From Bacillota bacterium (GTDB taxonomy: Bacteria > Bacillota > Clostridia > Acetivibrionales > JAMNXU01): a DNA stretch of 64,000 nucleotides. The notes beneath the pieces were generated by a model that was not told the origin of the DNA, made no database searches, and worked only from the letters and a program-made list of their open reading frames with translations. Of the stretch, positions 7,205 to 48,106 are shown in pieces. The position numbers and the translations under genes were made by a program. The stretch covers positions 124,001-188,000 of the forward strand of contig JAMNXU010000039.1 in assembly GCA_023623175.1 (NCBI GenBank), in the 5' to 3' direction. Each line of letters begins with the position of its first letter. Positions within the stretch are counted from its first letter, which is position 1.

Positions 7205-8980
7205 TTATTTGAACAAAAACAGTTTAATCCGCCTTCTTCTGTTAAAGTATCTCCACTGTCTCATAAGATACGGCATAAGGTAATGGTCCACTCCGAAGGC
7301 TCTGCCGGCGCCTGCCAGCATGCATATCGCCGCGGGAATGTACCACCACTGCTCGGGATACAGGCCCGTTGAAAGTATGAAGTTCACATTGAGCGCTAAG
7401 GCGCCGAGACCGGCGATGAAAGTGAATGTACCGGTAATGAAGGCCAGGCCGAGCCCGATTTCGGCCAAAACGATCATTATCTGGAAGAACAGCGCGTTGG
7501 GAACTATTATATTGTCAACAATCCATTCGTACCATTGCGGAGTGTGGTCGTATACAAGCCTGAACACCGCTTCGCCCGATTCGGATACCGAAGCACTTGT
7601 CTGCGCGTCGGTGGCCCTGCCTGCCAGAATGGCCTTTGTAAGCCAGTTGTCCTGGACTTTCTTAATGCCTTCCATCAGCCACGAGTATCCAAGGAAAAGC
7701 CTGAGGGGCACGAGCCAGAATGTGGGCGTAAGCTCTGTAAGGTGTTTTTCCGGCAGGGTTCTTCTGTGCCTCTTGTGAAGCAGCTCATGCTTGATATACT
7801 TGATAACCAGTTCGAATCCGCCTATTCCGAAAAGGTAGTGTATATTCACGAAAAATTTCATCAGCACGGCAAGGGGCCTGATAAGCTGCATTCCCATGAT
7901 GTTCGTAACCGCGAACGTGCTTCCGACGGAAACCATGACGCCGTGAAGCTTGGGCGTGATTTTTCGCTTTTCCTGTCCACGAATTTCGGCGAGGATGTTC
8001 AATGCTGCACCATGTCCGGTTTGAAGCGCTGACTCAACCAGGGCGGGCAGTGTCCCGTGCTCGGTTTGGAAAGCGGAAATGTCTCCTGCGGCATACACGT
8101 TCGGATATTGGGTCTGCGCATATTCATTTACAACTATCCTGCAGTTGCCGTTTTTGTCAAGATTCATCCCGTTTGTGATACCGCATGCTTTTACGCCGGC
8201 GGTCCAGATGAGGGTTTTGGTGCTTATCTCCGTACCGTCCTTGAGCTCGACGCTGTCTGCAGTGACTTTGGTTACGGGACTGTTGGTACGGACTTCGACC
8301 TTGAGTTTTCTTGTCAGGTAATCAAGGGACTTTTGGATTCCGCGTTCCTTCAGATGGGTAAGAATCTTGTCCAGCGCTTCTACCAGTACAAGCCTGACCT
8401 CGTCCCTGGGAATGTCATACTCGCTGCACAGAACCCGCACCCACTGCGCCAGTTCGCCGATCATTTCAACTCCCGTAAATCCGCCGCCTCCAACGACAAA
8501 GGTGAGCAGGCTCCTGCGTTTTTCACTGTCATCGGTCTGGGAAGCTTTGACAAAGCATTCCTTTATATGCTCTCTTATCCTTATGGCGTCGTTGTAGGAC
8601 CACAAGGTAAATGCATGCTCCTTGAGGCCTTCTATATTGTAAAAATTAGGTTCGCTGCCGGCCGCAAGTATAAGGTAGTCATATTTGTACTGGGTGGTTT
8701 CGGAGGCAATTAAGTTGTTTTCGAAATCAAAGCTGTTGATTTCGTCCTTGACCAACTTGACGTCGGTATACCGGAAGATGTCTCTCAGAGGCACAATGAC
8801 GCCTTCTTCGTCAATCCTGTTTCCGGCAACTTCGTGAAGCTCCGTGAGCAGCGTATGGTACGAATTCTTGTCAATCAGGACGATTTCCAAATCATCGCTT
8901 TTGCGCTTTTTTCTTTGGAGCGTAAGCGCTGCTTCCACACCGGCATAACCGGCTCCGAGTATAATGATCTTTTTGGCCAT
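7205..8980 (-). CDS. Type II NADH dehydrogenase with C-terminal DoxX-like membrane domain (Ndh2-like)
   Basis: IIILGAGYAGVEAALTL FAD motif, FVVGGGGFTGVEMIGEL NAD motif, VYAAGDIS; C-terminus LVPLRLFLGYSWLMEGIKK... multiple TM. Confidence 0.9.
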   Translation of the reverse strand: MAKKIIILGAGYAGVEAALTLQRKKRKSDDLEIVLIDKNSYHTLLTELHEVAGNRIDEEGVIVPLRDIFRYTDVKLVKDEINSFDFENNLIASETTQYKYDYLILAAGSEPNFYNIEGLKEHAFTLWSYNDAIRIREHIKECFVKASQTDDSEKRRSLLTFVVGGGGFTGVEMIGELAQWVRVLCSEYDIPRDEVRLVLVEALDKILTHLKERGIQKSLDYLTRKLKVEVRTNSPVTKVTADSVELKDGTEISTKTLIWTAGVKACGITNGMNLDKNGNCRIVVNEYAQTQYPNVYAAGDISAFQTEHGTLPALVESALQTGHGAALNILAEIRGQEKRKITPKLHGVMVSVGSTFAVTNIMGMQLIRPLAVLMKFFVNIHYLFGIGGFELVIKYIKHELLHKRHRRTLPEKHLTELTPTFWLVPLRLFLGYSWLMEGIKKVQDNWLTKAILAGRATDAQTSASVSESGEAVFRLVYDHTPQWYEWIVDNIIVPNALFFQIMIVLAEIGLGLAFITGTFTFIAGLGALALNVNFILSTGLYPEQWWYIPAAICMLAGAGRAFGVDHYLMPYLMRQWRYFNRRRRIKLFLFK

Positions 8981-31470: not shown

Positions 31471-31566
31471 ATAATGGTATAATATTTCCAACCGTGGCTA
31501 AACTAACAAAAGATAAAACGACAGAAAAGACAACAATAAACCATGTGGAAAAGGAGTCAGGAGAAT

Positions 31567-33006
31567 ATGAAGAAACTGTCATTTGAATACGGCCACGGTG
31601 AAATGGAAGCATATCTTCCGGACAATACCGACGTTTTTATCCCCGGCGAGACAGTGCCGGATCCTCCGTTTCTTCAAAATCCTGAAGAGGAGACAAGAAA
31701 GGCAATTCAAAACCCCATCGGAATGCCTCCGCTGTCCCAGCTTGCCAAAAAAGGCATGAAAGTCACGATTGTATTCCCGGACCGGGTAAAAGGAGGATTT
31801 CAGGCAAATTCCCACAGAAAGGTCGCCATACCTATTATAATTGAAGAACTTTTGAAAGCAGGAGTGGAAAAGAAGGATATCAAGCTCATATGCAGCAACG
31901 GCCTGCACAGGAAGAATACGGACGCGGAAATACGGGCTCTGCTCGGTGACAAGGTTTTCAACGAGTTCTGGTATTCAGGCCAGATTGTCAACCATGACAG
32001 CGAGGACTGGGACAATCTCGTTGACCTTGGCTATGATGAGCTCGGGGACAGGGTAATAATGAACAAAGAGGTGTATGAATCGGATATCGCGGTTCTTGTG
32101 GGACATACCCTCGGCAATCCCTATGGAGGATATTCCGGTGGATACAAGCATTGTGCAACGGGCATAACCCACTGGAGGAGCATAGGTTCACACCACAATC
32201 CCCAGACGATGCATCGCGAAGACTTTACGCCCGTCAGCAATTACAGCCTGATGAGAAGACAGTTTGATGCCATTGGACAGCATATGGAAAAATGCATGGG
32301 CAAGAAATTTTTCACCGTTGATGCGGTGCTTGACACCTATTCAAGGCAAATTGCGGTATTTGCCGGCTATGCGAAGGATATTCAGCCTCTTTCCTGGGAG
32401 ATTGCCGATAAAAGGACCTATGTAAAATGGGCAGACAAGAAATATGATGTCCTTGTATTTGGAATGCCGCAGGCCTTCCATTACGGCAACGGAATGGGAA
32501 CCAATCCGATTCTCATGCTCCAGGCAATATCGGCTCAAATTATAAGGCATAAGAGAGTTTTGAAGGACAACTGCGTGGTAATCTGTTCTTCCATTTGCAA
32601 CGGTTATTTCCACGATGAAGAATTCCCATCCTACAGGGAAATATTTGATCTTTTCCAGAGAGATTACAACAATATCCTTCCCGACCTTGCAAAGTATGGA
32701 GAATATGTTAGCACAAAACAGGAGTATATTGACAAGTATCGCTTTAAATACGGATATCATCCGTTCCACGGATTTTCAATGATCTCCTGCGGCCATATCG
32801 CCGAAATGCACTGCAGCGCAATTTATATCGTAGGAGCACAGGAGCCGGGTTATGCAAGGGCAATGGGAATGAAAACAAGGGCAGCTTTTGAAGAAGCGCT
32901 AAAGGATGCTGAAAAGATAGTGGGCAAAAACCCCAATATCCTCGCGCTTCCGAAAACGTTCAAACTTGCCGCGGTACACCTGTGCATGAAAGACGACAAA
33001 ATATGA
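31567..33006 (+). CDS. LarA/DUF2088-like (lactate racemase domain) protein
   Basis: KLSFEYGHGEMEAYLPDNTDVFIPGE; VTIVFPDRVKGG; LICSNGLHRKNTDAEIRALLG; VGHTLGNPYGGYSGGYKHCATGI. Confidence 0.85.
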   Translation: MKKLSFEYGHGEMEAYLPDNTDVFIPGETVPDPPFLQNPEEETRKAIQNPIGMPPLSQLAKKGMKVTIVFPDRVKGGFQANSHRKVAIPIIIEELLKAGVEKKDIKLICSNGLHRKNTDAEIRALLGDKVFNEFWYSGQIVNHDSEDWDNLVDLGYDELGDRVIMNKEVYESDIAVLVGHTLGNPYGGYSGGYKHCATGITHWRSIGSHHNPQTMHREDFTPVSNYSLMRRQFDAIGQHMEKCMGKKFFTVDAVLDTYSRQIAVFAGYAKDIQPLSWEIADKRTYVKWADKKYDVLVFGMPQAFHYGNGMGTNPILMLQAISAQIIRHKRVLKDNCVVICSSICNGYFHDEEFPSYREIFDLFQRDYNNILPDLAKYGEYVSTKQEYIDKYRFKYGYHPFHGFSMISCGHIAEMHCSAIYIVGAQEPGYARAMGMKTRAAFEEALKDAEKIVGKNPNILALPKTFKLAAVHLCMKDDKI

Positions 33007-33056
33007 AACCGGGTTGTCAAAGCTGATATGAGGCGAAACCAAACAGAAATATTCAA

Positions 33057-33159
33057 AAGACCCTCCCTTGATGTGTACTCGTTGTTTTTGGTATCACGCA
33101 ATCGAACTACTGAGTATAATAATACCAATGAAAAGACAACAGGACCCAGGGAGGGTCTT
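33057..33159 (+). terminator. Long imperfect hairpin followed by T-tract, downstream of the LarA-like gene
   Basis: 12 bp AAGACCCTCCCT/AGGGAGGGTCTT plus internal GTTGT/ACAAC and TTGGTAT/ATACCAA; then ATATTTTT. Confidence 0.6.
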
Positions 33160-33545
33160 ATATTTTTATCCATGATTTCTTAACACAGCCACAAATATAC
33201 AAATTCGCATACATTACCAGCCATGTAATTTTTGTTAATTAAGTCACACAAGTATTATTTTTATGTGATTTTTGCACTATTTTATTTATGCAAAACTTTA
33301 TTAATTTAAATTATTAAGTTCACATAAAACCACATAATTACTCAATTTTAAGCCCCCTCGTTATGTTTTAATTAAGTTTCAAAATGCTTAAATTATCCTG
33401 TTAATTTGATTACATACAGTGCCTGTCACGATTTTAACAAAGGTTTACATAATAAGTTTACAAGAATTATACTTGTACTTGCAGGGCCGATTTAATTGCC
33501 CAGATGCTGCAGAATTGGCCGGTTACAATGATTTTAGCCTCTGAC

Positions 33546-33589
33546 ACTGACCCTGGTCCGTGAAGCTGACCCTTGGTCAGTGAATTTTT
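33546..33589 (+). promoter_or_regulatory. Leader hairpin(s) with T-tract upstream of the phosphatase-superfamily gene
   Basis: CTGACC CTT GGTCAG TGAATTTTT, preceded by a degenerate duplicate CTGACCCTGGTCCGTGAA. Confidence 0.5.
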
Positions 33590-33646
33590 ATCACCTGGCA
33601 TTGTACCCGCCGATTTCACAGTCATATAACCTAAGGAGGCAAAATA

Positions 33647-35611
33647 ATGAGAAAAATTAAAAAGGTGTTGTTTCTCGGACTTGACGCAGCCATGCCGGAC
33701 CTTGTTAAAAAGTTTGCATCCGAGGGCAATTTGCCTAACATGTCAAGGCTCATGGAGCAGGGAATTTTTTCAAGGCTTGAGACGGTATTTCCGCCTCTAA
33801 CCGCGGCTGCCTGGACTGCCATAGTCAGCGGAGCAGGTTCCGGAACTAACGGCGTGCCAAGCCTGATGGTCAAACATGCGGGAGAGGAACTGGATCACTG
33901 GCATACGTCCTTTGACAGGAATGAAGTGCTGTGTGAGACGCTCTGGGAAGTAGCGCACCGCAGCGGACTGAAAACTGCACTGATAAACTGGCCGGTTACA
34001 TTCCCGCTTGGCGGAATTAATGAAAATCAGGGTGTGCAGGTGGCAGGCTCCTTGAATCCGCCGTTCAGGTATTTTTACATGCCGCTTTGGGATGTGGCTT
34101 CAAGTGCGGTATTTTCCGACAGGTTGCTTAACTGCAACCAGGTACCCGGAAGAGCCGTTCAAATCCAGCCACGTCCGGCTGAAGGATGGGTTAATCTTCC
34201 ACACAGCAGGAAACCGGTACTGGAGTTTGAGATCACCGTTCCGCCGACCTACGTGGAAGGCTACAGGATGCACGTGGCCGTTTACGCCACTACTGAAAAA
34301 GGTTATGACAGGGTTTTGATTTCCGAATCAAAGGATGCTTCGAAAGCAGTTACAGATATAACTTTGGGAGATTACGGCCCATGGATTGTTAAAAACTTCA
34401 AGGCAAGGGACAGGCAAAGGGATGGATGTTTCAGGTTCCAGCTATTTGAGCTTTCCGACGATGGAAAACACATTAAACTGTACCAGTCAGCGATAAATAC
34501 CGCGGAAAATTTCTGTGTACCGGAAAGCCTGACGGAAGAGATTAAGAGCGTTGCCGGCAACTACATGGAGGTTGACGACCCGTGGGCGTTTATGGATGGC
34601 TGGATGCCCATGGAGAAATACATTGAACAGCTTGGACTTCATGCCGACTGGTGGGGCAATGCCACAAGGTATGTGCTCGCAAACAAGGAATGGGATATGG
34701 CCTTTTCATGGGTAGGCACCATTGATCATATCGAGCATGTGCTCTACTCGGGAATAGAGCCGCGCGCAAGGGTCTATGACCCTGACAAGGCGGACTGGTG
34801 CATGGAACAGATAAGAACTGCTTATATGCAGGTTGATGAAAACATAGGAAAAATCCTCGAGGTAGTGGACCTGGAAGAGACCCTGGTCATCCTGATTTCG
34901 GATCACGGTATGACCCACCTGGACTGGAACCCCTATGTCAAGGAGCATCTCGCAAGAAACGGCCTTCTTGACTATGTTCTAGATCTGACCACCGATGACC
35001 CGAGCAACCTGAGCATCAACTGGAAAAACACCAAGTGCCATCCGCTCGAGCCCTGCCACGCGCATATTTTTATCAATCTCAAGGGAAGAGATCCCCAGGG
35101 TATAGTTGTGCCGGAGGATTATCACAAGGTGCAGGAAGAGATTATCAGGGCCCTTTACAATATGAAGGATCCCGAGACAGGGGAGAGCATTGCAGTCCTG
35201 GCGCTGAGAAAAGAAGAAGCCGGAACTCTTGGAATATACGAGGGTCCGGGGTATGACCGCGTGGGAGATGTGGTGTATGCGTGGAAACCGGGATATATGT
35301 CCCATCCGTTCATATACAGGTCTGCGATCAAATACAGGGACGGCTCCGAAAGAATCATTGCGAACCCGGAACTCTATGAACCCGCCGTGCTTTGCGGAAA
35401 CTTTACGGGTGTCCATCTTGCTCTGCCGTCGCTGCATGATATGCATGCTGTAATGATTATGGCCGGAGCAGGCGCTACAAGGTATGAACGCAAATTTGCC
35501 GCGAAGATAATTGACGTGGCGCCGACGGTATCAAAACTGATGGGAATAGATGTTCCGAAGGACGCGGAAGGAGGAGTTCTCTATGACGTTATCGACAGAT
35601 TTGAAGATTAA
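33647..35611 (+). CDS. Alkaline-phosphatase-superfamily / type I phosphodiesterase-nucleotide pyrophosphatase-like protein
   Basis: KVLFLGLDAAMPDLVKKFASEGNLPNMSRLMEQG; FPPLTAAAWTAIVSG; LVILISDHGMTHLDW. Confidence 0.87.
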   Translation: MRKIKKVLFLGLDAAMPDLVKKFASEGNLPNMSRLMEQGIFSRLETVFPPLTAAAWTAIVSGAGSGTNGVPSLMVKHAGEELDHWHTSFDRNEVLCETLWEVAHRSGLKTALINWPVTFPLGGINENQGVQVAGSLNPPFRYFYMPLWDVASSAVFSDRLLNCNQVPGRAVQIQPRPAEGWVNLPHSRKPVLEFEITVPPTYVEGYRMHVAVYATTEKGYDRVLISESKDASKAVTDITLGDYGPWIVKNFKARDRQRDGCFRFQLFELSDDGKHIKLYQSAINTAENFCVPESLTEEIKSVAGNYMEVDDPWAFMDGWMPMEKYIEQLGLHADWWGNATRYVLANKEWDMAFSWVGTIDHIEHVLYSGIEPRARVYDPDKADWCMEQIRTAYMQVDENIGKILEVVDLEETLVILISDHGMTHLDWNPYVKEHLARNGLLDYVLDLTTDDPSNLSINWKNTKCHPLEPCHAHIFINLKGRDPQGIVVPEDYHKVQEEIIRALYNMKDPETGESIAVLALRKEEAGTLGIYEGPGYDRVGDVVYAWKPGYMSHPFIYRSAIKYRDGSERIIANPELYEPAVLCGNFTGVHLALPSLHDMHAVMIMAGAGATRYERKFAAKIIDVAPTVSKLMGIDVPKDAEGGVLYDVIDRFED

Positions 35612-36494
35612 AGGGGTAGGCCTGGCGGGAGCAGGGACAATGGGCAAATGCATGATTGACCGCCTTGTCGCCGAAGGTTACAGGGTGGCAGCCTATGACC
35701 CTTTCCCCGCAGCGCAGGAATATGCGAGGGAGAAAGGAGCAACGGTCGTTTCGAGCCCTGCCGGGCTTGCCAAGCAGGCCACGTTGATCCTGATGTCGCT
35801 GCCCGCGCCGAAACAGGTATTTGAAGTTATCGGCGGCGAAAACGGGCTGCTCGAAGCGCTGACAGAGGAACACGTGGTAGTTGACACAAGTACCGTCGAC
35901 CCCGAGACATCGAGAAAGGGAGCGGAGATGGTCGCCGTGAAGGGAGCACAGTATGTAGACGCCCCCATTCTCGGCAGACCAAGCGCGGTCGGAAACTGGC
36001 TGATGCCTGCCGGCGGATCCCAGGAAGCGATAGATTACGCGAAACCGGCCCTGCTGACTTTTGCGAAAAGCGTCGTAAGGGTTGGCGACAATGGCGCAGG
36101 TAATGCCGTCAAGCTTCTGAATCAGCTGATGTTTTCCGTTATTAACGGAGTCAGCGCCGAAGTGATGGCGCTGGCTGAAAAGGTTGGCGTTGACAGGAAA
36201 GTGTTCTATGAAGTTGTAGCCGGCAGCGGAGCTGCGACGGTTAGCGGCCTTTTCAGAGAAACCGGATCAAGAATAGCAGCGGGAAATTACGATAATCCGA
36301 CGTTTACGGTTGAACTTCTTTGCAAGGACGCTTCGCTTGGACTTGAAATGGCAAAAAAAGCCGGAGTGACCCCGCTTATTTCCGGGTTTGTCCAGATGAT
36401 AAACGAGAACGCGAAGGGCAAAGGTTTGGCAAAGAAAGATACCAGCGCCCTGGCGAGGGTTTTCGAGGAATTTTTCTCAAAGTTTGAGGAATAG
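35583..36494 (+). CDS. Beta-hydroxyacid dehydrogenase (3-hydroxyisobutyrate / tartronate semialdehyde reductase family)
   Basis: GVGLAGAGTMGKCMIDRLVAEGY; VVDTSTVDPETSRKGAEM; GDNGAGNAVKLLNQL. Confidence 0.9.
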   Translation: MTLSTDLKIKGVGLAGAGTMGKCMIDRLVAEGYRVAAYDPFPAAQEYAREKGATVVSSPAGLAKQATLILMSLPAPKQVFEVIGGENGLLEALTEEHVVVDTSTVDPETSRKGAEMVAVKGAQYVDAPILGRPSAVGNWLMPAGGSQEAIDYAKPALLTFAKSVVRVGDNGAGNAVKLLNQLMFSVINGVSAEVMALAEKVGVDRKVFYEVVAGSGAATVSGLFRETGSRIAAGNYDNPTFTVELLCKDASLGLEMAKKAGVTPLISGFVQMINENAKGKGLAKKDTSALARVFEEFFSKFEE

Positions 36495-36757
36495 GGTCTT
36501 TTTAACCGGACAGAAAATAATCCGGATACCCTGGTAAGGAGGTGGTGAAGGAATCCTCTGCGGCAGCAGCTATTTCAGAAGCAACCGGAGCGGTTTGCCC
36601 GGCAGCTAAGGACAATGCAGGGGAAACAGCATTATAATAAGCAGCATTGTTCACAAACAAATGATACGGAGAGAAAGTGAAAAACGAAGAAAGAAGAAAA
36701 AAGAAGTCCGGATTAAATGTACTGAATACCTATAAATTCAATGTTGGGAGGAATAAG

Positions 36758-37900
36758 ATGAAAAAGTTAATTGCTGTTATTCTGGTATTGGTTATGGCAA
36801 TGGCGGTTCTGGCCGGATGCAGCGGCAGGAAGGAGACTGGGAAAGGAGATTATACAAGGCTGACTGATGTTGAAACAACCTTCGGGCTCCAGCCCTTTGC
36901 CAAGAAGCAGACACTGCGCATAGGATTCTTCACGGGTTCGCCCCTGTCCTATCCGTTCCTGTTTGCTGACAAACTGGGTTATTTTGATGAGCTGAACATT
37001 GAAATTGAATACGTTCCCTTTACAAATGGCCCCGGAATGCTCGAAGCCAATGCCGAGTGGGATATCGGAAGCATGGGCCTCGGCGGTCTGGCTGCCGCTA
37101 TGAAGGGTTACGGATTCAAGATAATCGACATTACGGACTACGAAGAGAACCTTGCGCTGTTTGCACGCCCCGGCAGCGCTCTTGCAAAGGATCCTGCAAA
37201 TCCTGAAAACTGGAAGGGCACAACCTGGATTTATCCTGCAGGAACAACCGCGCAGGCCACATTGGTGACGGCTCTGAAGAAAGTCGGGCTTGACCTCAAG
37301 GATATCAAGTCCACAAACATGGACGTTGCCAATGCTCTTACAGGATTTAAGGGTGGCACCGGCGACGGTCTTGCCGTATGGAACGCGATTGCATTCAAGG
37401 CCGAGGACGAAGGCTTTGTAAGAATAGGCGATTCAGGATCCCTTGGTTTCAAGGCTCCGTGCGGAACGGTTGTATCTCCTGAAACCCTCGAAGAAAAGAG
37501 AGCACTGATTGAAACGGCTGTGGCAGTGTTCCACTTCACCGTTGACTGGGTGAAAGAAAACAGGGAACAGGCAGCAGAATGGTACCTCGAAGACTGCCTC
37601 AACGAAGGAATGAACATTGACGAAAGCATTGCAACCAGGGCTATTGACTGGTACAGGGGACCGACAATGGAAGAATACTTCGAGCTGTATACAAAGACGT
37701 CCCCCGACGATGCAGGACTTTACACCAAGAGGGAACTGCTGCAGGCTGAAAAGGACATTCTCGTAGGACTTGATTTCTTCATTTCACAGGGTAACTACAC
37801 CAACGAGCAGAGGGCCCAGTTCCTTGATGAAAAACTCATTGATCCCAGTGTCGCAATGGGTGTCAAGGAAATGCTCGATGAGCTGGAAATAGAATATTAA
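36758..37900 (+). CDS. ABC transporter substrate-binding lipoprotein (SsuA/NMT1-like)
   Basis: MKKLIAVILVLVMAMAVLAGCSG lipobox; LRIGFFTGSPLSYPFLFADKLGYFDELNIEIEYVPF; SD GGGAGG. Confidence 0.9.
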   Translation: MKKLIAVILVLVMAMAVLAGCSGRKETGKGDYTRLTDVETTFGLQPFAKKQTLRIGFFTGSPLSYPFLFADKLGYFDELNIEIEYVPFTNGPGMLEANAEWDIGSMGLGGLAAAMKGYGFKIIDITDYEENLALFARPGSALAKDPANPENWKGTTWIYPAGTTAQATLVTALKKVGLDLKDIKSTNMDVANALTGFKGGTGDGLAVWNAIAFKAEDEGFVRIGDSGSLGFKAPCGTVVSPETLEEKRALIETAVAVFHFTVDWVKENREQAAEWYLEDCLNEGMNIDESIATRAIDWYRGPTMEEYFELYTKTSPDDAGLYTKRELLQAEKDILVGLDFFISQGNYTNEQRAQFLDEKLIDPSVAMGVKEMLDELEIEY

Positions 37901-38000
37901 GTTTCTAAAAAGAAATTAGACTCTTCAAAGAAATGCATGAACTCATTCAGGAACTCATTCAGGGAAAAAAACCTGTTTAATAATGAGAGCCTGTTGATGT

Positions 38001-38037
38001 CTGGCTTCCTCCCGCCGTGTCGCGCGGGGGAAGCCAG
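38001..38037 (+). promoter_or_regulatory. Intercistronic stem-loop between SBP and permease genes
   Basis: CTGGCTTCC(T)CCCGC...GCGGGGGAAGCCAG, no T-tract. Confidence 0.75.
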
Positions 38038-38086
38038 GCCATAACTTTATAAACGTTTAATTTACTTTTGAAGGTGGGAGCAAAAG

Positions 38087-38929
38087 GTGGCACAGAATAC
38101 AAAAACCAGATCCAATCAAAACAATGAACGGATTGCTCTGATTCAAAAGCAGAGGAAGAGGACGCAGGTTCAAAACACTATGCTGGCGGCCTCCGGGATA
38201 CTGGGATTTATTCTCATATGGCAGATTGCGGCTGTAAGCGGCCTTGTCAACAGCAGGTACATTGCTAAGCCGCTGGAGATAGTCAATCTCTTTATTGTCA
38301 AGCTGACGGATCCCAATCCCGACGGTGCAGTTCTCGGAGTCAACGTAATGTCGAGCCTTGCGGTTTCTCTTTCCGGTTTTGGACTGGCAGTGCTTATCGG
38401 AGTGCCTCTCGGGCTGTTCATGGGATGGTACAGGGGTTTTGACAGTTTCATGAGACCCATATTTGAAATTATCAGACCTATACCTCCCGTATCATGGATA
38501 CCGCTGACGATAGTCTGGCTTGGGATAGGACTCAAAGCTAAGGCGATTATAGTTTTTTTCGCGGCATTCGTACCGTGCCTGATCAATTCCTACACGGGCA
38601 TAAAACAGACCAGCGAGGTTTTGATAAATGTGGCCAAAACCTGCGGAGCATCCAATTTTACAATTTTCAGAAAAGTAGGTATACCCTCGGCGATGACGCT
38701 CACTTTTGCAGGAATAAAGGTTGCAATAGGAAATGCCTGGGCTACGCTCGTCGCTGCGGAAATGCTCGCGGCCTCAAGCGGTCTCGGATACATGATCCTT
38801 ATGGGCAGGCAGTTCGGGCGTGTTGACCTTGTTATTCTCGGAATAGTTGTAATCGGCGCTATAGGCTTGGTTATATCGAAACTTATAGACATGCTTGAAA
38901 ATAAAGTATTGGGGTGGAAGAAACTATGA
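38087..38929 (+). CDS. ABC transporter permease (SsuC/TauC-like), subunit 1
   Basis: BPD_transp_1 motifs: AKTCGASNFTIFRKVGIPSAMTLTFAGIKVAIGNAWATLVAAEM; GTG start. Confidence 0.92.
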   Translation: MAQNTKTRSNQNNERIALIQKQRKRTQVQNTMLAASGILGFILIWQIAAVSGLVNSRYIAKPLEIVNLFIVKLTDPNPDGAVLGVNVMSSLAVSLSGFGLAVLIGVPLGLFMGWYRGFDSFMRPIFEIIRPIPPVSWIPLTIVWLGIGLKAKAIIVFFAAFVPCLINSYTGIKQTSEVLINVAKTCGASNFTIFRKVGIPSAMTLTFAGIKVAIGNAWATLVAAEMLAASSGLGYMILMGRQFGRVDLVILGIVVIGAIGLVISKLIDMLENKVLGWKKL

Positions 38930-39738
38930 GCAGAGTAAAAACAGCAGCCATGAGTTCGTCCGAGAGAAAAGCCTACTACCTGAACCGGCTCTATATGATA
39001 CTGCCCGTTATTTCGGTTCTGCTTCTTTTATTGCTTTGGACCACCGCGTCGCTCAACTCGGATTTTCCTTCGCCGGTGGAAACCTGGAACAGGCTGATTG
39101 AGTTGTTTGAAAGGCCGATCAAGAACAAGACCATTATCGGTCATACCCTGGCAAGTTTGACGAGAGTTTTCCTGGCCCTCGCGTTTAACTGGACCTTCGG
39201 TATTGCCTTTGGTATTCTTATCGGCTGGAACAAGAAATGCAGGGCATTGTTTACGCCGCTGTTCAACGCTTTCAGGGCTGTCCCGCCTCTTGCTTGGATT
39301 CCGCTGATTACGATGTGGTTTGGAATCGGCGAGTTCCCAAAAGCGTTGACCGTTATTATCGGATCAATAGCGGCGGTGGTTGTTAACACCCAGGCAGGCC
39401 TCAGCAATGTACAGCAGATTTACCTCGACGTCGGAACAATGTTTAACGCCAATGTAAGGCAGAAATTATTCCAGATAGCCATTCCGTCGGCTCTTGACGC
39501 AATTTTTGCCGGAGTCAGAACATCAACGAGTGCGGCATGGATGGTCGTGCTTGCCGCTGAAATGCTTGGCGCCAAGTCCGGCGTTGGATTCCTTATTACC
39601 AGAGGCATGGATTCGATGGATATGCCGCTTGTGCTCATGTCGATGGCAGTCATCGGTATAGTCGGCGCAATGCTCGCCGTGGTTACACAATTTGCAGAAA
39701 GGTTGATATGCCCATGGACAAGAAAAAGGTCAAATTGA
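38926..39738 (+). CDS. ABC transporter permease (SsuC/TauC-like), subunit 2
   Basis: [48 protein letters not shown]. Confidence 0.92.
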
Positions 39739-40475
39739 GACTTGAAAATATTTCCCAGAGCTATGTGGTGAATAACGAGGTTCGTGACGCTGTCTCAAAT
39801 GTTTCGATTGATGTCTATGACAACGAATTCCTGGTTATTCTCGGCCCGGGCCATTGTGGCAAAAGCGTGCTTCTGAACATTATCGGCGGTTTGGAAAAAC
39901 CCGTTGAAGGCAACAAGTACATTGACGGTGTGAAATTCACCGGGAGCGACAAGCGAATAGGCATGGTGTTCCAGAGACTTGCGCTCATGCCGTGGAAAAC
40001 CGTTATGGGCAACGTGGAGTTCGGACCAAGGCTTGCAGGTGTGGATAAAGCCACGAGGAGGAAAATTGCCCAGAAATATATTGATCTGGTTGGACTTAAG
40101 GGATTTGAGAAAGCATATCCGCACCAGCTCTCCGGGGGTATGAAGCAGAGGGTAGGAATAGCCAGGGCTTACGCCAACAGCCCTGAAATTTTGCTGATGG
40201 ACGAACCCTTCGGCCAGCTCGACGCCCAGACCCGCATAGTCATGGAGGAAGAAATTCAGCGAATCTGGCAGCAGGAGAAAAGAACCATTATATTTGTTAC
40301 TAACAATATTGAAGAAGCGGTTTATCTTGGTGACAGAATTATCCTTTTGAGCAAGTGTCCCGCAAGGGTTAAGCAAATATATGAAATAAACCTGCCAAGA
40401 CCCCGTAACACAATGGATCCTGAATTTTTGAGGATTCGCAGGGAAGTATCGGAAAACACCGACCTGGCGCTATAG
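39714..40475 (+). CDS. ABC transporter ATP-binding protein 1 (canonical LSGG, H-loop His replaced by Asn)
   Basis: Walker [41 protein letters not shown]. Confidence 0.93.
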
Positions 40476-40495
40476 TAAAGGGGGAGAAATGGAAA

Positions 40496-41248
40496 ATGAA
40501 TGCTGAAAAGCAGGATTACAAAGTTGTGGTCAAAAATCTGACCAAGTACTTTGGAGATTTGCACGTTTTGGACAATATATCCTTCAATATAAGGAAAGGC
40601 GAGTTTTTGTGCGTAGTCGGGCCTACCGGCTGCGGCAAAACAACGTTTCTCAATCTGCTGACAAGGATATACACGCCGACGAAAGGAGACCTTTATATCG
40701 ACGGCAAGCCTGCTGATCCCAAGAAGCACAACCTGGCATTTGTGTTCCAGGAGCCTTCAGCGATGCCGTGGCTTACCGTTGAGCAGAATCTCCGGTTCGG
40801 GCTTGAGATAAAAAAGCTTAGTAAAAAGGAAATCGACGAAAGGGTTAACGAGATAATTTCACTGCTGGGTCTCGAACCCTTCAGGAAAGCCTATCCCCAT
40901 CAGCTGTCCGTAAGTACGGCGCAGAGGATCATTATAGGAAGGGCATTTGCCATGAATCCTGACCTTTTGCTTATGGACGAGCCCTATGGTCAAATGGATA
41001 TTAAACTTCGATTTTATCTCGAGGATGAAGTCATTCGTCTATGGAAGAAGCTTGGCAGCACCGTTGTGTTTATCACTCACAATATAGAGGAAGCGGTTTA
41101 TCTGGCAGAAAGAATACTGATCCTCACAAACAAGCCGACAACCATCAAGGAGGAAGTAATCGTCGACCTGCCGAGGCCGAGGGATGTTACTTCGCCGGAA
41201 TTTGTAGAAATAAGAAAGCACGTAACGGAGCAGATAAAATGGTGGTAA
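40496..41248 (+). CDS. ABC transporter ATP-binding protein 2 (degenerate signature LSVST, intact H-loop)
   Basis: Walker A GPTGCGKT; LSVSTAQR; LLLMDEPYGQMD; VVFITHNIEEAV. Confidence 0.93.
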   Translation: MNAEKQDYKVVVKNLTKYFGDLHVLDNISFNIRKGEFLCVVGPTGCGKTTFLNLLTRIYTPTKGDLYIDGKPADPKKHNLAFVFQEPSAMPWLTVEQNLRFGLEIKKLSKKEIDERVNEIISLLGLEPFRKAYPHQLSVSTAQRIIIGRAFAMNPDLLLMDEPYGQMDIKLRFYLEDEVIRLWKKLGSTVVFITHNIEEAVYLAERILILTNKPTTIKEEVIVDLPRPRDVTSPEFVEIRKHVTEQIKWW

Positions 41249-41359: not shown

Positions 41360-42121
41360 TTGTCTTCGGTTGAAGCATGTCCGGGTACAGGAGGAAGGCC
41401 GTTGACTATAATAACCGTTGCACTGATCAATTTTTTGTCTGCGTTCATCCAGGCGGCCAGTGGTCTTGGCTACGCCATATTTGCCATGTTTTTTATGCCG
41501 ATGGTACTGCCGTTTCAGCAATGCTCCCTCATAAGCGCGGCGGTAATTGTTGTAATTGGCATTCAAATGACTGTGTCATTAAGGTCTTACATAGATGTCA
41601 GGAAAGTAATACTGCCAATGTTTTTTTGCATACTGACGACGGGAGTGGGGATTTACATCATCCGTGTGACCAACGCCGGTGTGCTGAGAAAAACAATGGG
41701 CGTATTTCTGCTTGTGCTTTCCGTTTATTTCTATATTACCGAAAAGCACGGTATCAAGGTGAAGGAAAGTTTCCTGAGCGGTGCCGCAATAGACGCCATA
41801 ACCGGGCTTACAACCGGGATGTTCAATATTGTCGGTCCTTTTCTTACCCTGTACTACTACGGAAACAGCAAAAACAACCTCGAATTCAAGGCCAATCTCG
41901 AATTCAGTTTCCTGATTGCCGGAATTTACTCCCTTTGTCTTAATCTTTTTTATATAAAACCCGATGCTTTTTTGCTAAAAACCATCGGTCTATCGGCGAT
42001 CGCATCCGTTGCGGCTGGAATAACGGGCCTGCGGCTGTTCAGGAAACTGGACAGGAAGAAACTGAAATATGTGATTTTGTGCACGTTGCCGCTGATGGGT
42101 GTAATTCAGTTGGTCAGATAA
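41360..42121 (+). CDS. Sulfite exporter TauE/SafE-family membrane protein
   Basis: Multi-TM; SAFIQAASGLGYAIFAMFFMPMVLP; TGLTTGMFNIVGPFLTLYYY; exact start uncertain (TTG ~41402 possible). Confidence 0.85.
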   Translation: MSSVEACPGTGGRPLTIITVALINFLSAFIQAASGLGYAIFAMFFMPMVLPFQQCSLISAAVIVVIGIQMTVSLRSYIDVRKVILPMFFCILTTGVGIYIIRVTNAGVLRKTMGVFLLVLSVYFYITEKHGIKVKESFLSGAAIDAITGLTTGMFNIVGPFLTLYYYGNSKNNLEFKANLEFSFLIAGIYSLCLNLFYIKPDAFLLKTIGLSAIASVAAGITGLRLFRKLDRKKLKYVILCTLPLMGVIQLVR

Positions 42122-42268: not shown

Positions 42269-43309
42269 ATGATGAATTCGTTGGAACGCGTATCGTTGAT
42301 TTTGCAGCACAAGGAAGCGGACCGTGTTCCGGTTTACCCGCTGATTAACAGTATTTCAAGAAAATATACCGGTATCAGTTATGCTCAATGGGCAAGGGAC
42401 GCTGAAAAATGCGCCGAGTCTATTATCAAGGCAACGGACGACATTGACGTTGATTGCATATGCTCCCTCGTAGACCTTTCGGTTGAGGCAGCTGATTTCG
42501 GACAGGAGATAGAATATCCTGAGGATGCGGCGGCCAGGCCTTCTCACAGCAACTGGCTGATTAAAACCGCCGAAGAATATTCAAAAATCGAGCCTGTCAA
42601 TCCCCGTAAAACACCCAGGATGAGCGGGCATATAAAGCTATGCGACATACTTGTGAAAGCCAGGGGAAAGGAGAAACCCGTAGTGGCCTTTGTATTTGGC
42701 CCTCTTGGCGTTCTGAGCATGATGAGGGGACAGCAGGATCTTTTCATGGATTTGTATGACGAGCCGGACAGAGTGAAATCTGCACTGGAAGCGGTTAATG
42801 AAACCCTCCTGGAATATGTCAGGGCGCTTATTGAAACCGGCGTACATGCCGTAATGTTTGATACGCTTTTTGCCTCCCAGTCAATAATGAGCAAAAGCAT
42901 GTGGGACGAGTTTGAAGGCATTTACGTGGAAGAACTGGCGCAGTATGTCCATGGGCAGGGCCGGATGGTCATGATACACAACTGCGGAACGGGAATTTAC
43001 TTTGACGCGCAGATAAAACGCATGAAGCCCGAAGCAATTTCATTTTTGCACATTCCCGACGACTGCTCTTCCTTTGCGGAGGCCAAGGAAAAATACGGAA
43101 ACGTGACGACTCTCATAGGCCATATTCCTCCGGAATGGCTGATTACCGCTACTAAGGAAGAAATAGAGGAGGAATGCAGGAAGGAAATAGAGATGCATAA
43201 GAAAGGCGGCGGGTTCATACTGGCGACGGGATGCGAATTTCCTTCGGTCCTGGGACCGGAAAAGGCCAAATATATCGTTGAGGCCTGCAGAAAATACGGG
43301 AAATATTAA
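42269..43309 (+). CDS. Uroporphyrinogen decarboxylase-family protein (MtaA/CmuA-like methyltransferase candidate)
   Basis: KEADRVPVYPLINSISRKYTG; MVMIHNCGTGIYFD; GHIPPEWL; ILATGCEFP. Confidence 0.85.
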   Translation: MMNSLERVSLILQHKEADRVPVYPLINSISRKYTGISYAQWARDAEKCAESIIKATDDIDVDCICSLVDLSVEAADFGQEIEYPEDAAARPSHSNWLIKTAEEYSKIEPVNPRKTPRMSGHIKLCDILVKARGKEKPVVAFVFGPLGVLSMMRGQQDLFMDLYDEPDRVKSALEAVNETLLEYVRALIETGVHAVMFDTLFASQSIMSKSMWDEFEGIYVEELAQYVHGQGRMVMIHNCGTGIYFDAQIKRMKPEAISFLHIPDDCSSFAEAKEKYGNVTTLIGHIPPEWLITATKEEIEEECRKEIEMHKKGGGFILATGCEFPSVLGPEKAKYIVEACRKYGKY

Positions 43310-45548: not shown

Positions 45549-46490
45549 ATGAGGATCATCAGGCTGTTGGCGGCGGTTCTTGCCGTCGCATTAATATTTG
45601 GAGCATGCAGTCTGAAAAAGGACAGCAACCCGGATGGGGGCGCGGATAATAAAGATCCGAGGATCATTGTCACGTCTTTTTATCCGATGTATGTTTTTAC
45701 GCTGAATATTACGCAGGGTGTCGAAAATGTAAAGGTTGTTAACATGACCCAGCCGTCGACTGGCTGCCTGCATGATTATCAGCTTACTCCGGGCGATATG
45801 AAATTGCTGGAAAAAGCTGACGTACTTGTTATAAACGGGGCAGGGCTTGAGAACTTCATAGAGGATGTGCGGCCGCGCCTGGGGGATACAAAGATAATAG
45901 ACGCAAGCGAAGGATTGGAGCTCCTGGAAAACGGCGAAGAACTTGAACCCGGGGAAAGGGAGGACCATGGGCATTCCGTCAATCCCCATATCTGGGTCAG
46001 CGTTTCCGGCGCGATCGGCCAGGTGACGAACATAGGCAATGAACTGGCGGAAATTGACCCGGCCAATGCTGAAAAATACCTGTCCAATGCACGGGCGTTT
46101 GTCAATAAACTGGAACAGCTCAGGGACAAAATGCACAGGGAGCTGGAAGACCTGCGAAGCAGGGATATTGTAACCTTTCATGAAGCTTTTGAATATTTTG
46201 CCGAAGAGTTCGACCTGAACGTGGTTGCAGCAGTAAGGCAGGAACCTGATAATGAACCCGGTCCTCAGCAGTTGGCAAGAATAATTGAAATTATACGGGA
46301 CAAAGGGGTTAAGGCCGTTTTCACGGAACCCCAGTATCCGTCGAAAATTGCGGAAACAATCGCGAGGGAAACGGGTGTTGAAATTTACGAACTCGACCCT
46401 GTCGCAACCGGTCCCGAAAAACCGGGTCCCGACTATTATGTCCGAGTAATGGAATCAAATATTGAAGTGTTGAAGAAGGCGTTGGAGTAA
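45549..46490 (+). CDS. znuA: Zinc/metal ABC transporter substrate-binding lipoprotein
   Basis: Lipobox FGAC; VTSFYPMYVFTLNITQG; REDHGHSVNPHIWVS. Confidence 0.93.
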   Translation: MRIIRLLAAVLAVALIFGACSLKKDSNPDGGADNKDPRIIVTSFYPMYVFTLNITQGVENVKVVNMTQPSTGCLHDYQLTPGDMKLLEKADVLVINGAGLENFIEDVRPRLGDTKIIDASEGLELLENGEELEPGEREDHGHSVNPHIWVSVSGAIGQVTNIGNELAEIDPANAEKYLSNARAFVNKLEQLRDKMHRELEDLRSRDIVTFHEAFEYFAEEFDLNVVAAVRQEPDNEPGPQQLARIIEIIRDKGVKAVFTEPQYPSKIAETIARETGVEIYELDPVATGPEKPGPDYYVRVMESNIEVLKKALE

Positions 46491-46491
46491 T

Positions 46492-47265
46492 ATGGAATTA
46501 ACCGGTGGAAAGCACATACGCGGAACATGCAGCGGGATGTGTTGCCTGAAAATTGAAAACTTAGGCGTTAAATTCGGCAAAAAGGTCATCCTGAGCGATG
46601 TCAACCTCCATGTTCACTGCGGCGAACTGACAGCAGTGATAGGACCGAACGGTGCAGGAAAAAGCACTCTGCTCAAGGCTATTTTGGGGGAGGTAAAGCA
46701 TACTGGGAGCCTCCAGTTTGTCAACGCTTTCTCGGAAATGGCGCAGCGCCCGCTGATAGGCTATGTGCCTCAGCACCTGGAATTTGACGCCGGCGCTCCT
46801 GCAAGCGTTTTTGATTTGTTCATGTCCTGCACGAGCAGATTGCCCGTGTGGCTTATGAAACCTTCGGGAATAAGGAAAAACGTGTTGAATGCGCTGGAAA
46901 GGGTGGAGGCTGCCCATTTGATAGACCGCTCGCTGGGTTCGCTTTCCGGCGGGGAGCTTCAGAGGGTGTTGCTGGCGCTTGCCCTTGAACCTTTGCCCAA
47001 CCTGCTGCTGCTCGATGAACCGGTATCGGGCGTAGACCGTAAAGGGCTCGAGCTTTTCTATGATTTGGTTTCTGAAATGAGAAAAAGGCACGACCTTTCC
47101 ATAATACTGGTATCCCACGATCTTGAGCTTATTGCGCAGCATGCCGACAGGGTCCTGCTGCTGAACGGCACCGTTCTGTCTTCCGGAACTCCCGGTGAAG
47201 TATATGCAAGCAGCGCATTTTTCGAAATTTTTGGCGACAATGGCTTCAGAGGAGGAAGTAAGTAG
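46492..47265 (+). CDS. znuC: Zinc/metal ABC transporter ATP-binding protein
   Basis: IGPNGAGKSTLLKAI; LSGGELQRVLLALAL; LLLLDEPVSGVD. Confidence 0.93.
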   Translation: MELTGGKHIRGTCSGMCCLKIENLGVKFGKKVILSDVNLHVHCGELTAVIGPNGAGKSTLLKAILGEVKHTGSLQFVNAFSEMAQRPLIGYVPQHLEFDAGAPASVFDLFMSCTSRLPVWLMKPSGIRKNVLNALERVEAAHLIDRSLGSLSGGELQRVLLALALEPLPNLLLLDEPVSGVDRKGLELFYDLVSEMRKRHDLSIILVSHDLELIAQHADRVLLLNGTVLSSGTPGEVYASSAFFEIFGDNGFRGGSK

Positions 47266-47266
47266 C

Positions 47267-48106
47267 ATGATGGACGCATGGTACAGGCTTGTGGATCTTG
47301 TTCTGCCCTTTGAATGGACGAGCCATATTTTCATGAAAAACGCACTGCTTGCGGTTTTGCTTTTTTCTCCCCTGTTCGGCCTTTTGGGTACTATGATTGT
47401 TAGCAACAGGATGGCCTTTTTCTCTGACGCGCTGGGCCATGGAGCTTTTACCGGCATTGCAATCGGCGGTCTGATGGGACTAATGGATCCGGTTTGGACC
47501 GCAGCGCTTTTCTCCATCGCTTTTTCCGTAGTTATAACGCTGATAAAGCATTACAGCAAGGCCTCGACGGATACCGTCATAGGCGTGTTTTCATCAACCA
47601 CCATTGCCACGGGACTGGTTATCATGTCGCGCGGCAAGGGGATTCCCAATTCCCTGCTGGTTGGCGACATATTGAGCATCACTCCGGGTGAAATTGCGTT
47701 TTTTTTAGGCATTTTCGCAGTTGTCATCGTTTTGTGGATCCTGATTCTCAACAGGGTGTTTCTCATCAGCATAAACCGTTCATTGGCGCTGAGCCGGGGA
47801 ATAAACCCGCTCTGGACCGAAATGCTTTTTACCGCGATAATAGCGGTAGTCGTTACCGTTTCACTTCAGTGGGTGGGAATCCTGATTATCAACTCAATGC
47901 TGGTACTCCCGGCTGCGGCCGCCAGGAATATTGCCGGCAGCGTGCGCAGTTACCATGCGTTTTCCGTGGCATCGGCGCTTGTTTCTGGAACGGGCGGCCT
48001 TGTGCTTTCGTACTTCTGGAACACCGCCACGGGAGCGACGATGGTCCTGTTGGCGGCACTGATCTATTTTGCCACGCTGGCGGTAAAAATCCGTTTCAGG
48101 AAGTGA
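47267..48106 (+). CDS. znuB: Zinc/metal ABC transporter permease
   Basis: ABC-3 family; MAFFSDALGHGAFTGIAIG; VGILIINSMLVLPAAAARNIA; start by SD AGGAGG upstream of 47267. Confidence 0.93.
   Translation: MMDAWYRLVDLVLPFEWTSHIFMKNALLAVLLFSPLFGLLGTMIVSNRMAFFSDALGHGAFTGIAIGGLMGLMDPVWTAALFSIAFSVVITLIKHYSKASTDTVIGVFSSTTIATGLVIMSRGKGIPNSLLVGDILSITPGEIAFFLGIFAVVIVLWILILNRVFLISINRSLALSRGINPLWTEMLFTAIIAVVVTVSLQWVGILIINSMLVLPAAAARNIAGSVRSYHAFSVASALVSGTGGLVLSYFWNTATGATMVLLAALIYFATLAVKIRFRK

Follow-up and report, generated by a model that had tools for sequence, protein, structure and literature searches.

The operon at positions 36677 to 41248 of the window, which is the whole stretch of 64,000 nucleotides analyzed here, raises the question of how an ABC importer may use ATP when both of its ATPases carry altered nucleotide-binding motifs. 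Each ATP of an ABC dimer is located at the subunit interface, with the Walker motifs plus the H-loop contributed by one subunit and the signature by its partner (PMC7756269). Evaluation of the locus needs to consider which motif is altered in which of the two ATPases and if this distribution is kept in other genomes.

All genes of the operon are located on the forward strand in the order SBP-P1-P2-NBD1-NBD2, with all reading frames intact. The part from 38087 to 41248 encodes a pair of BPD_transp_1 permeases followed by a pair of ABC ATPases. The preceding gene for an SsuA/NMT1-like substrate-binding lipoprotein (SBP; 36677 to 37900; Pfam PF09084, 2.5e-06, above the cutoff; NCBIfam SsuA_fam, 2.1e-18, below the curated cutoff) was not included in the first-pass annotation, and neither was the altered Walker A motif of the first ATPase. 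The true start of SBP is probably the ATG at 36758 (MKKLIAVILVLVMAMAVLAGC, lipobox LAGC), and its gene remains next to the importer genes in orthologous loci. Permease 1 (38087 to 38929; PF00528, 5.4e-25) overlaps permease 2 (38914 to 39738; PF00528, 6.9e-25) by 16 nt, permease 2 overlaps the NBD1 gene (39708 to 40475) by 31 nt, and a gap of 20 nt separates NBD1 from NBD2 (40496 to 41248), which suggests coupled translation. A strong hairpin on the same strand at 37999 to 38042 is in the gap between SBP and permease 1 (fold of 37985 to 38065: MFE −34.6 kcal/mol, z −4.88 compared to shuffled sequences). No U-run follows this hairpin, which is possibly a processing or attenuation element and may set the expression of SBP to a higher level than that of the permeases.

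Motif reading and comparison with orthologues assigned the alterations to different positions in the two ATPases. As already annotated, NBD1 contains a canonical signature, LSGGMKQR (40128 to 40151), together with an Asn in place of the H-loop His (codon AAC, 40302 to 40304). Additionally, its Walker A motif GPGHCGKS (39843 to 39866) deviates from GxxGxGK[ST] by an exchange of the fourth Gly for His. NBD2 was likewise correctly described as possessing the H-loop His (codon CAC, 41078 to 41080) and a degenerate signature, LSVSTAQR (40904 to 40927); its Walker A motif GPTGCGKT (40619 to 40642) and its Walker B motif are canonical. The Walker B Glu, the Q-loop Gln, and the D-loop Asp are kept in both ATPases, and NBD1 also keeps the Walker A Lys.

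Genomes of the same order, publicly available genome contigs, and a sample spanning the phylum served as sources of relatives, and larger regions were subsequently fetched. Among the initially collected orthologues (86 NBD1, 87 NBD2), the H-loop Asn and LSGG were each found in 86/86 NBD1 proteins, the Walker A Gly was absent from every readable NBD1, and the His, the Walker A Gly, and LSxS were each present in 87/87 NBD2 proteins. This was extended to 93 loci with both ATPase genes; since two of these had been sampled a second time, 91 of the pairs are distinct. All 93 loci possess the same partition of motifs, with one Ser instead of Asn and one unreadable Walker A motif as the only exceptions. 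The fourth Gly of Walker A was absent from NBD1 in 92/92 readable orthologues (R/H/Q/L/Y/N instead), and Asn occupied the H-loop position in 92/93, the sole Ser being that of the L151 NBD1 (7664 to 8446). The complementary motifs, LSGG of NBD1 and the Walker A Gly and His of NBD2, were canonical in 93/93. The NBD2 signature was [LI]SxS in 93/93, with the second Gly always replaced by Ser and the first Gly mostly by Val but also by A, T, M, S, or I. The first-pass annotation had proposed to examine if orthologous loci with two ATPases jointly conserve the H-loop Asn and a “VST” signature: the H-loop and signature changes indeed occurred jointly rather than singly, the Asn with the one exception given, while the literal “VST” had to be rejected as the conserved form in favor of [LI]SxS.

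The nearest canonical ATPases of the same order or phylum show none of these changes and have TH, LSGGM, and a Walker A that reads GPSGCGK or nearly so, so that a chance or isolated substitution was rejected as an explanation for the identical partition. When 399 genomes of the phylum were searched at the DNA level with an F[VIM]TNNI[ED]EA-type pattern, which fixes TNNI and covers His-to-Asn changes in that context only, seven sites were obtained, all of them in NBD1 of this family. The two ATPases were also inherited together. Each locus with NBD2 contained NBD1 as well, except for L109, the contig of which starts just 5' of NBD2. Five loci of a Bacillota subclade (L145, L147, L148, L149, and L151) show the different order NBD2-SBP-P1-P2-NBD1, nevertheless with both ATPases, an unchanged partition, and ISSS or ISAS as NBD2 signatures. 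At least 83 of the 93 loci are from Bacillota; judged by record title, the others include 3 from Spirochaetota and 1 each from Thermodesulfobacteriota, Chloroflexota, Actinomycetota, Planctomycetota, and Synergistota; several of the non-Bacillota records are contigs of metagenome-assembled genomes, some of them very short, and single phylum assignments may be wrong.

In a tree of 124 rows, the NBD1 proteins formed one clade (100/98) and the NBD2 proteins another (100/100), and both were joined at 92/94, so the two clades are probably sisters. The NBD2 stem is long, with 1.64 changes per column, and the sub-branches of NBD1 and NBD2 largely match. A single duplication, after which both copies changed early and in a complementary manner, would agree with this topology. 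The distances of NBD1 and NBD2 correlate with an r of 0.89, but other pairs of operon members gave equally high values, which indicates co-inheritance and not contact. Values for pS between 0.68 and 0.93 are close to saturation, compared to a pN of 0.06 to 0.14 for the NBD genes; even for the nearest relative, synonymous sites were already nearly saturated at an NBD pN of about 0.06. Most dN/dS ratios were not computable due to this saturation. As judged from the substitution pattern, the NBD genes are under strong purifying selection. Its presence in 91 distinct loci marks the motif pattern as ancient and maintained instead of being a product of decay.

With respect to the family, the NMT1/SsuA-like SBP, the BPD_transp_1 permeases with an EAA loop, and an ATPase of the SsuB/TauB/NrtD branch agree with an importer of the nitrate/sulfonate/taurine type; two canonical ATP sites, which are typical of the described members but not strictly defining, are not found here. 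AF2 predicted each ATPase alone as a complete nucleotide-binding domain (mean pLDDT of 90.4 for NBD1 and 89.3 for NBD2), and such confident single-chain models are uninformative concerning a homo- or heterodimer. The cyanobacterial nitrate and bicarbonate importers NrtBCD and CmpBCD provided subunits among the top fold matches of both ATPases, with NrtD/CmpD at or near the top. Considering sequence and fold, these are the nearest solved relatives of NBD1 and among the nearest of NBD2. The best PDB matches of NBD2 by sequence are sugar-type ATPases, and its placement in the branch is less certain than that of NBD1. In NCBIfam, NBD1 matched SaoA, TauB, ProV, and NrtCD best, and SaoA was the top match of NBD2; none of these matches reached its cutoff.

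Taken together, the locus quite probably encodes an SBP-dependent importer with two permeases and an obligate NBD1:NBD2 heterodimer, of which one ATP site is canonical and the other degenerate. Constant pairing of both genes even in rearranged operons, as co-inheritance, supports the heterodimer; assembly of this dimer and ATP turnover at a single site are deduced from the split of the motifs and the gene pairing. In the standard head-to-tail arrangement of ABC dimers, site A would bring together LSGGM from NBD1 with the His and both Walker motifs from NBD2, would be fully canonical, and should hydrolyze ATP. Site B would combine GPG[RHQ]CGK, the catalytic Glu, and the Asn of NBD1 with [LI]SxS of NBD2. 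This degenerate site probably binds ATP but should hydrolyze it slowly or not at all, and it may serve as a latch that is retained; in this case, each cycle would cost one ATP and the two halves would move unequally. The earlier proposal of one canonical and one doubly degenerate site stands with respect to this split in 93/93 loci, but the degeneracy is larger than proposed, with three elements altered. The divergence of permease 2 around its EAA loop, also pointed out earlier, was borne out by the orthologues: the EAA-loop Gly was present in 88/88 permease 1 proteins but in only 41/88 permease 2 proteins (Asn in 33, His in 10), and asymmetry may thus reach into the docking of the ATPases.

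The altered motifs are distributed in such a way that exactly one composite site stays intact. This complementary split alone is weak evidence, because two of eight random allocations of three changes give the same result. Both sites of the heterodimer may instead hydrolyze ATP, with the H-loop Asn, the changed Walker A motif, and LSxS as tolerated variants and with mere differences in rate in an otherwise NrtCD-like importer. NBD1 keeps the catalytic Glu, the Walker A Lys, and the Q-loop Gln; retention of the Walker B Glu, unlike in most degenerate exporter sites, argues against one-site turnover. Asn alone may be tolerated because ABCC1 with Asn or Gln at the H-loop of its consensus site transports at a nearly normal level (PMC7756269). 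Moreover, DppD and DppF of Escherichia coli both hydrolyze ATP, with only DppF seen binding an ATP analogue when the SBP is absent (PMC12136057). However, three elements of one composite site are altered jointly and kept in 93 loci while the checked elements of the other site are invariant, which makes turnover at both sites rather unlikely. Alternatively, site B could be more than a passive latch, namely a site specialized for a regulatory nucleotide or metabolite that gates transport while the other site does all hydrolysis. The exchange of the Walker A Gly for Arg, His, or Gln, the kept catalytic Glu, and the H-loop Asn could indicate this, but this version is considered unlikely.

Separate homodimers of NBD1 and NBD2, serving different permease pairs or states, would agree with the known SsuB/TauB-type importers, which have one ATPase gene, and with the prediction of each ATPase as a complete domain by itself. 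However, both ATP sites of either homodimer would be defective, leaving none canonical, and both genes are always found together, rearranged operons included, so that this arrangement is very unlikely. Decay of the genes, which the first-pass annotation had listed as a result that would speak against its proposal, or a sequencing or annotation artifact has a negligible probability: the unusual motifs themselves were the sole reason to consider it, nothing was found in its favor, and the intact frames, the high synonymous but low nonsynonymous divergence, and conservation over many genera and several phyla led to its rejection. A heterodimer in which a single site remains canonical is therefore the preferred reading.

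Known SsuABC and TauABC systems contain a single canonical ATPase gene and hence ATPase homodimers. The operon shares the SBP, permease, and ATPase families with them and gave NCBIfam matches to the TauB, TauC, and SsuA families. It differs by its two ATPase genes, and all its NCBIfam matches are below the curated cutoffs; with no component reaching the curated cutoff of an Ssu or Tau profile, it is, by this measure, not an SsuABC or TauABC system proper. The statement in the first-pass annotation that ATPase homodimers are normal in this importer family needs correction, since structures of the NrtC/NrtD and CmpC/CmpD heterodimers have been solved. NrtBCD and CmpBCD belong to the same importer family and also use two different ATPases, C and D, but NrtC and CmpC are long chains of about 665 to 690 residues, whereas here two short and complementarily degenerate ATPases are encoded, along with two distinct permeases, unlike in NrtBCD/CmpBCD. 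The readable segments of NrtC, NrtD, and CmpD, which do not include the CmpC residues, are canonical (GHSGCGKS, SGGMKQR, and TH), in contrast to the degenerate motifs here. Judged from these sequences, the unusual feature compared to NrtCD and CmpCD is the degeneracy and not the ATPase heterodimer.

No degenerate-site importer of the nitrate/sulfonate/taurine family was found in a literature search confined to open-access papers. To this extent, the earlier assumption of no well-described case in the family persisted, but importers with one degenerate ATP site are known outside of it: RbsA and NupO of Bacillus subtilis (PMC11466899), for sugars and nucleosides, respectively. These ATPases belong to a different type of importer and carry both nucleotide-binding domains on a single fused chain, with no Lys in the second Walker A. 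The exporters ABCC1, TAP, ABCG5/G8, Pdr5, TM287/288, and BmrCD also combine one consensus with one degenerate composite site; as here, the signature is changed in one of their domains, and the Walker motifs or the H-loop are changed in its partner (PMC7756269). Most degenerate-site exporters lose the Walker B Glu, which NBD1 keeps. Work on degenerate ATP sites has dealt mostly with exporters, whereas this putative case concerns an SBP-dependent importer family with an ancient, widespread, and exactly complementary degeneracy. Two separate and independently mutable ATPase genes, plus NrtBCD and CmpBCD as solved, canonical-looking heterodimeric relatives for comparison, should make the role of a non-hydrolyzing site directly testable in importers.

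The neighboring genes may give insight into the substrate. Directly 3' of NBD2 is a gene for a TauE/SafE-family exporter (41360 to 42121, forward strand; PF01925, 6.3e-18), homologues of which recur next to the importer elsewhere. Upstream, the region from 31543 to 36494 encodes, on the forward strand, a homologue of LarA-like nickel-pincer hydroxyacid isomerases (31543 to 33006; PF09861, 1.3e-39; LarAH14/15/16, 1.2e-68, far below the cutoff; cluster in 16 loci) and a beta-hydroxyacid dehydrogenase similar to HIBADH and sulfolactaldehyde reductase by profile matches (35550 to 36494; cluster in 8 loci). An alkaline-phosphatase-superfamily hydrolase is also encoded in this region. Members of this gene set recur beside the importer in L036, L037, L041, L048, and L157. 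Across about 94 loci, TauE-type exporters occurred in three clusters of 14, 10, and 3 loci, and sulfatases with an anaerobic sulfatase maturase, class II aldolases, polyol-type dehydrogenases, a split transketolase, RpiB, and LarA-like isomerases were also recurrent. Sulfoacetaldehyde acetyltransferase, Xsc, was found in four loci (representative with 840.6 bits at an equivalog cutoff of 676.4); L145, L148, and L149, with the order NBD2-SBP-P1-P2-NBD1, have Xsc nearby.

The TauE, Xsc, sulfatase-maturase, and transketolase neighbors suggest organosulfur substrates. The neighborhood gives about even odds for a small, anionic organosulfur substrate or, alternatively, for a hydroxy acid or sugar related to it. 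The binding proteins are the most divergent component, with a mean identity of 31%, so the substrates probably differ among members. The locus would thus mark a recurrent and probably organosulfur-related uptake system of anaerobes. A sulfoquinovose importer of Faecalicatena was considered as a characterized member, but this was unsupported, the importer being described by similarity to Agrobacterium/Rhizobium systems (PMC11659671).

A cluster of proteins of about 441 amino acids is encoded beside the importer and the transketolase halves in L043, L071, L080, L082, and L113; its representative (L080:6760-8082) had no NCBIfam match at 1e-10. Further downstream in the window, a URO-D family protein is encoded at 42269 to 43309, with the MtaA/CmuA methyltransferases as the closest NCBIfam models, below the cutoffs, and the genes for ZnuA, an ABC ATPase, and an ABC-3 permease at 45549 to 48106 form an ordinary importer operon of the zinc/manganese type.
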